DNA of 64,000 nucleotides, from positions 1 through 64,000 of the forward strand of contig JABCZI010000012.1 in NCBI GenBank assembly GCA_013289765.1, in the 5' to 3' direction. How positions within the stretch are numbered: the first letter of the stretch is position 1; every line of letters begins with the position of its first letter. Position numbers and translations under genes: made by a program. The notes below the pieces were generated by a model. That model ran no database searches. It saw nothing but the letters and a program-made list of their open reading frames with translations, and had not been told where the DNA came from. Positions 724-42,692 of this stretch are shown in pieces. Source of the DNA: Acidobacteriota bacterium. Its GTDB lineage: Bacteria > Acidobacteriota > Terriglobia > Terriglobales > Acidobacteriaceae.

Positions 724-876
724 ATGCCCCGAGAAATTGTTACGTTACAGTGCGGTGATTGCAAAGAGCGGAATTATTCGACGACGAAGAACCGGAAGAC
801 GACGACGGAGCGGCTGGAGTTTAAGAAATTCTGCAACCGTTGCCGTAAGCATACGCCGCATAAAGAAGTGAAGTAG
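724..876 (+). CDS. rpmG: 50S ribosomal protein L33
   Basis: A 50-residue protein, too short for the ORF track. It starts [10 protein letters not shown] and has the L33 zinc-ribbon pattern: CGDC near residues 10-13 and CNRC near 37-40, with the intervening [10 protein letters not shown] segment typical of L33. Length matches the family (about 50). It is a component of the large ribosomal subunit near the E site. The zinc-binding (C+) form is present, so the protein probably needs zinc. The position between tuf and tRNA-Trp/secE is the usual one in many bacterial phyla. Confidence 0.95.
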
Positions 877-942
877 CCAGTACCAAGTACCTAGTACCCA
901 GAACGGCAGGACTGGCAACTGGGTACTGGCAACTGGGTACTG
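877..942. repeat. Inverted heptamer-repeat element A (rpmG/tRNA-Trp spacer)
   Basis: The left arm reads as 7-nt units AGTACCA AGTACCT AGTACCC. The right arm carries the same units on the other strand (CTGGGTA CTGGCAA CTGGGTA). AGTACCCAG (893-901) is the exact reverse complement of CTGGGTACT (919-927), and CAGTACC pairs with GGTACTG at 936-942, so the spacer can fold into a hairpin directly before the tRNA. Function unknown. Confidence 0.75.
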
Positions 943-2010: not shown

Positions 2011-2050
2011 GCCTAGCTAGAAGCTAGGAGCTAGAAGCTTAGGAGCTTAA
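2011..2050. repeat. Heptamer-repeat element B (nusG/rplK spacer)
   Basis: Direct units AGCTAGA AGCTAGG AGCTAGA run from 2015 to 2035, followed by decayed AGCTTAGG and AGCTTAA. The TAGGAG produced by the array is the only Shine-Dalgarno-like sequence upstream of rplK (ATG 2057), so the repeat may supply the ribosome binding site. Confidence 0.7.
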
Positions 2051-3364: not shown

Positions 3365-3913
3365 ATGGCGGTTACCAAGGCAAGAAAACAGGAACAGGTT
3401 GCGAAGCTCAGTGCGGAGCTGAAGAACGTCTCCAACGCTGTCGTTGCCACCTATACAAAGATGACCGTGTCACAAGATTACGAACTGCGCAAAGCTCTGC
3501 GCGGCGCGGGCGCGAAATATCAAGTCGTCAAGAACACGCTGGCGGAGCTCGCGGCCAAGGGCACCAAAGTCGAGGAAGGGTTAAAGAACCTTTCCGGCGT
3601 GACCTCGATTGCTTACACCACTGGCGATCCGGTGGCTATGGCTAAGGCGCTAACCAAGTACGCCAAGGATGCGCCTGAGTTCACCTTTAAGGTGGGCGTG
3701 GTCGAGGGCCGCGTGATTTCGATCAAAGAAATCCAGGCGCTGGCCAGCATGCCGTCGAAGGAAGAGCTTTATTCCAAACTGCTGTTCCTGATCAGCGCGC
3801 CTGCGCAGCGTCTAGTTACTGTGATGAATGCGGTGGGACGCGACGTGGCGGTTGTGATCAGCCAGGGCGTGGAGAAGGGTAAATTCAAGGGCGACGCTCC
3901 GGCAGGCGCGTAG
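3365..3913 (+). CDS. rplJ: 50S ribosomal protein L10
   Basis: L10, 182 residues, the stalk base that binds L7/L12 dimers through its C-terminal helix. The N-terminal half carries VVATYTKMTVSQDYELRKAL and the RNA-binding KYQVVKNTLAELA. The start ATG is preceded by GAGG. The family is usually 165-180 residues, so this is full length with a short GDAPAGA tail. Confidence 0.96.
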   Translation: MAVTKARKQEQVAKLSAELKNVSNAVVATYTKMTVSQDYELRKALRGAGAKYQVVKNTLAELAAKGTKVEEGLKNLSGVTSIAYTTGDPVAMAKALTKYAKDAPEFTFKVGVVEGRVISIKEIQALASMPSKEELYSKLLFLISAPAQRLVTVMNAVGRDVAVVISQGVEKGKFKGDAPAGA

Positions 3914-3915
3914 CG

Positions 3916-3960
3916 CGGGCGCCCTCGCCCACGCTGCCGGGCAAAGTGCCCGGCCCACAT
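3916..3960. repeat. Hairpin repeat in the rplJ/rplL spacer (GGGCGCCC / TGCCCGGC family)
   Basis: CGGGCGCCCTCGC (3916-3928) is followed by a perfect hairpin GCCGGGCA AAG TGCCCGGC (3936-3954) and CCACAT. The same hairpin-plus-CCACAT pattern recurs at 61600-61625, and the 13-mer CGGGCGCCCTCGC recurs inside mutS2 at 27487-27499. There is no T tract, so it is not a standard terminator; it could still modulate rplJ:rplL expression. Confidence 0.6.
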
Positions 3961-4128
3961 GGTTCGGGACGGTGAAGGCCGTCCGAAGAGATTTGGTTAT
4001 CTGCAAGTCAGGGGTTGCGCGGTTCGGATTCAGGCGTTGTCTGGCGCCGGAAGATGAGCCTGCCGCACTGGAAACCCGGCCCAGGATAATGAAATAAAAA
4101 TTCATAACTCGAAAAGTGGAGAACTAAC

Positions 4129-9436: not shown

Positions 9437-9587
9437 AGTACCGAGTACCTAGTCCCGAGTGTAAAGCGAGACTTCGGGACTAGGAGCACTCTTAAACAAG
9501 TTTGAAGAAGAACGTTCCGCTCATTAGGAGCTCTCGAATGACGCGGGACATAAACCTCGGTACCCGGTACTAGGTACTCGGTGCTGA
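9436..9587. repeat. Inverted heptamer-repeat element C (rpoB/rpoC spacer)
   Basis: The left array AGTACCG AGTACCT AGTCCCG is complemented twice. TCGGGACTAGG (9474-9484) pairs with CCTAGTCCCGA. ACTAGGTACTCGGT (9569-9582) is the exact reverse complement of ACCGAGTACCTAGT (9440-9453). The two pairings exclude each other, so alternative RNA folds are possible between two essential genes. Confidence 0.75.
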
Positions 9588-9613
9588 CAGAGAGCAGGAA
9601 GCGGAGGAACACC

Positions 9614-13801
<4,188 letters not shown>

Positions 13802-29337: not shown

Positions 29338-31323
29338 ATGCCCACAGAAGACTTCAAAGAAACGCTGAAGCAGCAGGCGGACATCGTCCGCATCATCGGC
29401 GACTACATCAAGCTGAAGAAGGCTGGGGCGCAGAACTATTCCGGGCTGTGCCCGTTTCATGGCGAGAAGACACCATCGTTCTCAGTGCATGCCACGCGTC
29501 AGTTCTATCACTGCTTCGGCTGCGGCGTTTCAGGGGACGTGTTCAGCTTCGTTCAGAAAATCGAGAACATCACTTTCCCCGAGGCTCTCCGTTTGGTAGC
29601 GCAGAAGCTCGGCGTCCCGCTGCCGAAGACCACATACTCCAGCCCCGGAGAAGCGAAAGAAGCCAGGCTGCGCGCTCAACTGTACGACGCGCAGGAGCGC
29701 GCCGCCGCATTTTTCCAGGAATGCCTGAAACGTCCCGAAGGCGCCCGCGCGCGGGAATACTTGCAGGGCCGCGGCTTGGACGCAGAGACGATCGCCCGCT
29801 TCCGCATTGGCTACGCTCCCGATTCCGGCTTCCTCCTCCGCGACCGTCTCGCCGGAGAATTCGACGAAGAAGTTCTGCGTGAGAGCGGCTTGTTCTCGTG
29901 GAAGCAGGAAGAACGGGAAGACCGGCCTCCGGCTTCCCGTCCCCGGCGCGCGGAAGCAGGTGCAAATAGTGCTGCAGAACCCGAATCCCGGAAGCCGGAA
30001 GCCGGAGGCCGGAACCCGGGCGCCGCCGCCATGTACTCAAAGTTTCGCAACCGCGTCATGTTTCCTATCGCCAGCGACGCGGGAAAGATCATCGCATTCA
30101 CCGGACGAACCCTCGCCACCGACGAGAAATCCGGCCCGAAATATTTGAATTCACCCGAGACCGCGATTTACTCCAAAGGCCGCGTCTTATTCAATCTCGA
30201 CCATGCGAAAGAAGCGATCCGCAAATTGGATTACGCCATCCTCGTCGAAGGACAAATGGATTGCATTTCCGTGGACGCAGCCGGATTTCACAATGTGATT
30301 GCCAGCTCCGGCACTGCCTTCACCGAAGTCCAGGCGAAGTTGCTCGGCCGATTCAGCAAGAATGCCGTAGTGAATTTCGATCCCGACACCGCCGGAGCCA
30401 AAGCCACCGAGCGCACGCTTGGCCTGCTGACCGAGGAAGAATTTCAGATCAAAGTTCTCACGCTTGAACAGGGTTTCGATCCCGATCTCTATCTCCGCCG
30501 CAAAGGCAAAGAAGCCTACGGCGAAGCGCTGCGCACTTCGCAGAAATATTTTGACTATCTCATCGACCGCGCGCGCAGCCACTTTCCCGTTCGCAGCGCT
30601 GAAGGCAAAGTGAAAGCTGTGAATTATCTCCTGCCACACATTCAGCGCATACCCAGCCGGATCGTGCGCGACGAATTAGGCCAGGAGATCGCGCAAAAGC
30701 TCGGCATCGATTCAGCCGTGCTTCGCCAAGAGCTGCGGCATGTCGCTTCCGAGCGTTCGGCATCGTCGGTGAAATCCTCCGCCGAAAATCAAGCCACCGA
30801 TGCCGAGCGCATTCTCGTGCGTGCCCTCGCCTCCGCGCGCCAGATGAATCCCGACGCCGAGCATGTCTCCGCCCGCGATGGCGCCCGCGAGGTTGTTAAA
30901 GACGAAGAGTTCGATCCTGCACGCCAGGCCCAGTATGCATTCCAGAGCGAAGGTCTGCATCGCGGCCTGGCGACCGAATCGCTGGTCGAGGCGCTACTCA
31001 CCGCCGGGGCTGAAGTTGCCGATGTAATGGAAGTACCCTGCTCCGAAAGTGAGCGCCGCATGCTGGCTTCCATCCTATTGAAAGAGGACGAGGAACTCAC
31101 TGCGGAGCGCCTCGACGGCGCCGTCCGCGCTCTGCGCCGCATTCATTTACGCCGCCGCTTGGAGGAAACGCAGCGCCAACTGAAGAAACCGGGCCTCAGC
31201 GACGATAAAGTACGGATGAAAGAGCTATTGCTCGAGGTAGAACGCTTGAGCCGTGCCTTGCGCGATCCCAGCCTGGCGGAAGATGGGCTCAAAACCGCCC
31301 TTGGAAATAAGAAAAGTGCGTGA
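29338..31323 (+). CDS. dnaG: DNA primase
   Basis: DnaG makes RNA primers at the replication fork. About 661 residues from ATG 29338 (MPTEDFKETLKQQADIVRII); the GTG at 29299 would add 13 residues with no better site. CHC2 zinc finger CPFHGEKTPSFSVHATRQFY then HCFGCG. TOPRIM: AILVEGQMDCISVDAAGF and VVNFDPDTAGAKATER. A C-terminal helicase-binding region follows. Between GLFSWKQ and YSKFRNRVMFPI there is an insert of about 40 low-complexity residues (Pro/Arg/Ala/Glu-rich), encoded by an inverted heptamer-repeat array. It sits upstream of rpoD, as in macromolecular-synthesis operons, but 225 nt away. Confidence 0.95.
   Translation: MPTEDFKETLKQQADIVRIIGDYIKLKKAGAQNYSGLCPFHGEKTPSFSVHATRQFYHCFGCGVSGDVFSFVQKIENITFPEALRLVAQKLGVPLPKTTYSSPGEAKEARLRAQLYDAQERAAAFFQECLKRPEGARAREYLQGRGLDAETIARFRIGYAPDSGFLLRDRLAGEFDEEVLRESGLFSWKQEEREDRPPASRPRRAEAGANSAAEPESRKPEAGGRNPGAAAMYSKFRNRVMFPIASDAGKIIAFTGRTLATDEKSGPKYLNSPETAIYSKGRVLFNLDHAKEAIRKLDYAILVEGQMDCISVDAAGFHNVIASSGTAFTEVQAKLLGRFSKNAVVNFDPDTAGAKATERTLGLLTEEEFQIKVLTLEQGFDPDLYLRRKGKEAYGEALRTSQKYFDYLIDRARSHFPVRSAEGKVKAVNYLLPHIQRIPSRIVRDELGQEIAQKLGIDSAVLRQELRHVASERSASSVKSSAENQATDAERILVRALASARQMNPDAEHVSARDGAREVVKDEEFDPARQAQYAFQSEGLHRGLATESLVEALLTAGAEVADVMEVPCSESERRMLASILLKEDEELTAERLDGAVRALRRIHLRRRLEETQRQLKKPGLSDDKVRMKELLLEVERLSRALRDPSLAEDGLKTALGNKKSA
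29914..30022. repeat. Inverted heptamer-repeat element D, inside dnaG
   Basis: The right arm reads as 7-nt units CCGGAAG CCGGAAG CCGGAGG; the left arm holds the same units reversed. CCGGCCTCCGGCTTCC (29922-29937) and GGAAGCCGGAGGCCGG (29997-30012) are perfect 16-bp inverted repeats, 59 nt apart. The architecture matches the intergenic elements A, C and F, but this one is read through as protein. Confidence 0.8.
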
Positions 31324-42617: not shown

Positions 42618-42618
42618 A

Positions 42619-42689
42619 GTGGCTAGTGGCCAGTGATCAGTGGCCAGTTAATACTGCGCTGCCCTCTAATCACCGGACATTGACCACTG
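42619..42689. repeat. Inverted heptamer-repeat element F (lpxA/lpxI spacer)
   Basis: The left arm reads GTGGCTA GTGGCCA GTGATCA GTGGCCA. The right arm TGACCACTG (with CACCGGACAT before it) is the same unit reversed. CAGTGGCCA and TGACCACTG pair with one G-T. The same architecture as elements A and C. Confidence 0.65.
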
Positions 42690-42692
42690 CTT

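Follow-up and report, generated by a model that had tools for sequence, protein, structure and literature searches.

Heptad arrays in the window

The window analysed here is a 64,000-nucleotide stretch of an Acidobacteriota genome (contig JABCZI010000012.1) that carries rpmG, tRNA-Trp, nusG, the ribosomal protein genes rplK, rplA, rplJ and rplL, then rpoB and rpoC and, farther along, lpxA and lpxI. The first-pass annotation had read four spacers as tandem 7-nucleotide units, three of them as inverted pairs able to fold. All four proved to be periodic (Table 1), and the three pairs gave fold z-scores against shuffles of -5.8 in the rpmG/tRNA-Trp spacer, where the hairpin encloses no gene, -4.8 in rpoB-rpoC, and -2.6 in lpxA-lpxI, the last with a degenerate right arm. 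The rpoB-rpoC duplex reaches -51.7 kcal/mol and ranks 0 among the 51 right segments compared. The nusG/rplK array lacks an inverted partner, folds no better than its shuffles (z = 0.06), and doubles as the source of the AGGAG preceding rplK. In an Rfam search of the window, tRNA was the sole match.

Table 1. Heptad arrays in the window, in window coordinates.
Feature	Units	Position	Strand	Remark
Left arm	AGTAGCC AGTACCA AGTACCT AGTACCC	872..899	+	Overlaps rpmG stop codon
Right arm	Reverse complement AGTACCC AGTTGCC AGTACCC AGTTGCC AG	907..941	-	
Single array	AGCTTCT/AGCTCCT	2011..2050	-	nusG/rplK spacer
Left arm	AGTACCG AGTACCT AGTCCCG	9437..9457	+	Immediately 3' of rpoB stop codon
Right arm		9554..9587	-	Upstream of rpoC; pairs with 9437-9457 arm over ~95 nt
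Additional array	GGCTTCC dialect	29975..30025	-	
Left arm	AGTGGCT AGTGGCC AGTGATC AGTGGCC	42618..42648	+	3' of lpxA stop codon
Right arm, degenerate		42668..42690	-	Upstream of lpxI; inverted partner of 42618-42648 arm

Conserved stretches of other kinds lie in some spacers of the window. In rpoB-rpoC (positions 9437-9637 and orthologues), the heptad arms flank a conserved hairpin, GTTCCGC...GCGGAAC, whose loop contains GCTCTC; a GAGAGC 3' of the right arm could pair with this loop as a pseudoknot. There is no Rfam match. Immediately upstream of rplA, at positions 2488-2600 and in orthologues, the stretch ACCACGG..(hairpin)..GCGGTGGGAGAC is conserved and structured; it resembles an L1-binding site but is positioned between rplK and rplA. 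The long rplJ-rplL spacer (positions 3913-4128 and orthologues) is likewise conserved and resembles a structured RNA (GGTTATC...GGGGTTGCGCGGTC...GTTGTCTGGCGC...CGCACTGGAAACC...GATAACGAA).

Genome-wide periodicity, unit grammar and layout

An excess of lag-7 periodicity over shuffled spacers across the genome had been set as the test of the initial proposal, and it was found. Using 1.49 Mb of contiguous sequence from the same genome, with genes called and a cluster defined as at least 16 of 21 lag-7 matches, we counted 46 intergenic clusters; Markov shuffles yielded 0 and 2. The other lags from 4 to 13 gave at most 7 intergenic clusters each, lag 14 gave 31, as expected, and lag 15 gave 15. Coding DNA follows the usual multiples of three instead of lag 7.

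RGYNNYY describes the grammar common to the units; it scores 2.95 bits per unit versus 2.17-2.30 in column-permuted arrays. The free NN (AC, CG, TN, AN, GG or TT) defines what we call a dialect, and the dominant units in this genome are AGTACCN, AGTCGTT, GGCTTCC and AGCAATT. A pattern control that reads RGYNNYY backwards is inflated through GGCTTCC-type arrays.

Layout was scored more strictly, on about 118 arrays, where shuffled spacers yield roughly 15. Successive arrays within one spacer are predominantly in the order +- (18 cases, against 4 of ++, 3 of -- and 1 of -+), and the two arms of a pair share their unit at 6.17 of 7 positions, compared with 3.79 for permuted partners (maximum 5.17). 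Arrays are densest between tandem genes (0.66 per kb), less dense between convergent genes (0.52) and sparse between divergent ones (0.14); in tandem-gene spacers, 42 of the 93 arrays are located no more than 15 nucleotides from the upstream stop codon, where 20.4 +- 3.4 are expected. From this dependence on gene orientation and stop-codon position it follows that the arrays are situated in transcribed spacers.

Turnover at orthologous sites

Orthologous spacers were compared across 80 nusG loci from relatives. Between rpoB and rpoC, most species have a left arm 3' of the rpoB stop codon and a right arm farther downstream, in dialects that include AGTACCG, AGTCGTT, AGTTCTC, AGTGGCC, AGTTGCC and AGCTATC. 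Duplex folding gave -45.7 kcal/mol for a species' own arms versus -36.2 kcal/mol for swapped arms, with a median rank of 4 of 51. On the RpoB tree, with dialects assigned by eye from the duplexes, the 25 typed species require at least 16 dialect changes, through which the arms remain complementary. Thus the view that period and symmetry persist while the unit varies was borne out by these changes, except that the unit is not arbitrary, being held to RGYNNYY.

At the rpmG-tRNA-Trp site, 75 relatives show octads, other palindromes or heptads in a wide range of dialects; closely related species can thus differ even in element family, with layout and pairing preserved. The rplK-rplA spacer occurs among relatives in both filled and nearly bare states. 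In lpxA-lpxI, six relatives have GGCC-dialect hairpins, and in a further genome (L232) TTGCC arms enclose a 459-nucleotide insert with an IVP gene.

At lag 8 the relatives show a further periodic class of 60 clusters, to which N-runs contribute a few; lag 7 has 142 clusters and other lags about 10. This period-8 inverted-arm family, with units such as GTAATTGG, GATTGTGT and GATCGGGA, occupies heptad sites in L111-L117, L121, L138, L153 and others (nusG, rplK and secE spacers). Other palindromic repeats, GGCGTCATCCTGAGCGAAGCGAAGGATC and GTAGAGACGCGGCTTGCCGCGTCTC, which resemble GTAG-tagged REPs, were seen at the same post-stop sites in L115, L118, L130 and L134 (rpmG-tRNA site) and others. Separately, many relatives (L111-L113, L116, L122, L133, L135, L141) have between nusG and rplK an extra small, aspartic-protease-like open reading frame (MGTF..KVWNP..EALVDTGA..) that is absent from the window.

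A PF05635 gene between heptad arms

Within the 1.49 Mb, only two pairs of matched arms lie 200-1,800 nucleotides apart, and both enclose IVP genes. These two inserts and that of L232 encode a four-helix bundle protein matching PF05635 (E = 1e-36). The whole genome contains six PF05635 genes (23S rRNA IVP, or S23), all of them flanked by inverted heptad arms, with a different dialect at each, and each of the six heptad-armed loci encodes a four-helix bundle of the PF05635/TIGR02436 type. No IVP gene in this genome is flanked by the window's main AGTACC dialect; such genes are found in the relatives L270, L286 and L290. The window arrays, having no gene, are therefore classed only as gene-less relatives of these elements.

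Solved structures related to the protein include 2gsc and 2rld, and the Xanthomonas S23p is a homopentamer of four-helix bundles (PMC4990558). A weak match (E = 0.005) places Avd of diversity-generating retroelements in the same bundle superfamily; an identification of the IVP protein as Avd was rejected, with NF033474 scoring 17 bits against a curated cut-off of 80.

Among PF05635 loci from relatives, the wider phylum and plasmids, 37 of 43 passed the arm test, compared with 2 of 421 control genes. Gene-bearing control matches, HslV and a MobA-like gene, were dismissed because the arrays flanking them are unrelated. In a larger set, periodic inverted arms flank 85 of 91 PF05635 loci, with period 7 in 78, 8 in 5 and 9 in 2; the remaining periods between 4 and 12 are each matched by one locus at most. 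Some IVP arms from other phyla depart from the RGYNNYY grammar. Most of the plasmid matches belong to Nostoc, Calothrix and their allies, from which heptamer repeats were originally reported. Two others are a locus with octad arms in Gemmatirosa (Gemmatimonadota) and a heptad-armed one in Azospirillum lipoferum (L307), inserted in the LSU (23S) rRNA gene. Of 87 genes other than IVP on three stretches of cyanobacterial plasmid, 2 passed the test, both of them direct neighbours of the IVP gene. In two of the plasmids (Pseudanabaena galeata, L299, and Anabaena sp. 90, L304) a heptad-armed four-helix bundle gene stands between cas6 and cas4, at the identical position within a type I-D CRISPR operon. 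A search of viral contigs gave no confirmed IVP relative.

Of 247 Acidobacteriota genomes, 81 have both RGYNNYY arrays and PF05635, 21 only the arrays, 35 only PF05635 and 110 neither, an odds ratio of 12 on raw counts that ignore phylogeny. PF05635 is thus unmatched in 21 of the 102 genomes with heptads.

These numbers bear on one alternative, plain simple-sequence repeats, in which polymerase slippage favours 7-nucleotide units, and chance and template switching produce the hairpins between inverted arrays independently of any gene. Such a view agrees with the excess of heptamers in the genomes of numerous bacteria (Mrazek 2007, as cited in PMC4679880) and with the differences in heptamer copy number among Coxiella strains (PMC4990558). 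It is nevertheless improbable in light of the +- polarity (18 against 1), the unit common to both arms, the placement after stop codons, the near absence between divergent genes, and the association with PF05635 at 85 of 91 loci.

The dprA-topA site

One of the IVP loci, between dprA and topA, could be followed through 28 congeners. The gene and its arms are present in 24 of them, gene remnants in two (L339, L346), a hairpin without the gene in one (L343) and no visible element in one (L360). The last was considered as a clean empty site and rejected, given that the end of dprA is rearranged and a deletion may be responsible. Neither movement nor a clean unoccupied site bearing a target duplication was observed. 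Dialect and protein vary together: AGCTGTC arms go with IVP proteins 72-85% identical to the one in our genome, AGCTTCT arms with proteins 61-68% identical, and AGCTNTT/GGCTCTT arms with proteins 42-61% identical. Over all loci, with same-site pairs excluded, arm similarity tracks IVP similarity (Mantel r = 0.26; permutation maximum 0.085), and L281, from another family, has the AGCTGTC arms of our element although at a different site. The host codons AGC TTC at dprA-topA resemble the unit, and we considered whether the host sequence seeds the first unit; this is suggestive at that site, but the variety of dialects at rpoB-rpoC shows that it does not apply generally.

A second alternative is that the hairpins are host RNA structures under selection for 3'-end protection, processing or cistron insulation, with compensatory drift, and that IVP genes are tolerated or land there. 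It draws on the long stable rpoB-rpoC stems of most species, the hairpin of some family at rpmG-tRNA in most relatives, and the post-stop enrichment. A stem does not require a 7-nucleotide tandem form, however, and the dialect is replaced altogether between species whose RpoB proteins are 98% identical, as between the window and its nearest relative, L112, at rpoB-rpoC. Moreover, one site is filled by several families, and the IVP subfamily follows the dialect across sites. We therefore regard this explanation as unlikely, if the strongest of the alternatives.

Comparison with known systems

The first-pass annotation named the cyanobacterial STRRs and knew of no comparable system described in acidobacteria. 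The heptad system does have precedents in 23S rRNA intervening sequences (IVSs), cyanobacterial heptamers and a Nostoc tRNA-Leu intron stem, all of which share its architecture. In 23S rRNA IVSs with S23p, as in the present elements, a PF05635 gene is looped out of a long inverted-repeat stem; in Coxiella burnetii, tandem heptamers (GACAGAT) lie upstream of the S23p reading frame of what is considered a selfish element (PMC4990558). The present elements differ in that they sit between protein or tRNA genes, number hundreds without a gene, and can change dialect site by site. All elements of the window and of its genome lie outside the 23S rRNA gene, inside which we found only that of L307; given this location, they are not 23S IVSs, although the architecture is shared.

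Cyanobacterial STRRs and other described heptamers (GGGGACT in Nostoc and GGGAATC in Xanthomonas, PMC4692102; TAACTGA in Beggiatoaceae, PMC4679880) are likewise intergenic 7-nucleotide tandem units in many copies. Their sequences differ from those found here, though several fit RGYNNYY once reverse-complemented (AGTCCCC, AGTTATC), and they were described as direct repeats or G-quadruplexes with no link to S23/IVP (PMC4692102, PMC4679880). In the Nostoc tRNA-Leu(UAA) intron, the P6b stem is built of Class I TDNGATT or Class II NNTGAGT repeats; this 7-nucleotide repeat stem with two free positions swaps motif at a fixed site and keeps its fold (PMC4476775); unlike the present elements, it lies inside a group I intron with no known IVP gene.

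A third alternative takes the arrays for the termini of a DNA transposon, or for REP-like repeats, moved by a Y1 (RAYT/TIRYT) transposase. REP/RAYT and TIRYT repeats are likewise short palindromes outside genes, commonly on their 3' side, and acidobacterial TIRYTs with long inverted repeats have been described (PMC3733652). Since none of the six Y1_Tnp matches in our genome is flanked by matched heptad arms, we consider this origin very improbable.

A general link between heptads and S23/IVP had no earlier mention in the non-subscription literature searched.

Proposed origin of the arrays

From the observed architecture, PF05635 association, placement, arm complementarity, fast dialect turnover and link between IVP subfamily and dialect, we conclude that the window arrays are probably (roughly 0.8) arms of S23/IVP-type hairpin elements, in which a PF05635 gene occupies the stem loop and most copies are gene-less. 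The window's own arrays are best read as gene-less members. A full element consists of a PF05635/TIGR02436 four-helix bundle gene inside the loop of a long stem whose arms are tandem 7-nucleotide, sometimes 8-nucleotide, units in inverted orientation; in most copies, including those of the window, the gene would have been lost or never present, leaving bare hairpins. The spreading mechanism first suggested thus appears right in kind, with gene and arms presumably moved or exchanged as one unit, and the IVP protein may recognise its cognate periodic stem. Placement after stop codons and between cistrons parallels that of 23S rRNA IVSs in dispensable rRNA helix tips. By analogy with those IVSs (PMC4990558), the transcribed stem would be cut by RNase III, and insertion between cistrons would therefore be tolerated. 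Slippage and arm-to-arm template switching could account for the uniformity of unit number and sequence within a site.

More tentatively, and at somewhat less than even odds, S23/IVP genes and their heptad or octad inverted arms may form one cross-phylum, transcript-level mobile class, in which the protein recognises its own periodic stem and mobilises gene-less hairpins in trans. The heptamers of cyanobacteria, Beggiatoaceae, Xanthomonas and acidobacteria would then be largely its remains.

To our knowledge, the role and mobility of the S23 protein and 23S IVSs have been unsettled since 1990, and bacterial heptanucleotide repeats have no accepted origin. The S23/IVP link would account for inverted heptad pairs 3' of stop codons, and for the sharp differences among close species in orthologous spacers of essential operons. 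With its tight association across phyla and its matching protein and arm types, it offers a shared frame for S23 and the heptamers, joining two old puzzles, heptad repeats and ribosomal insertions, in a form that can be tested.
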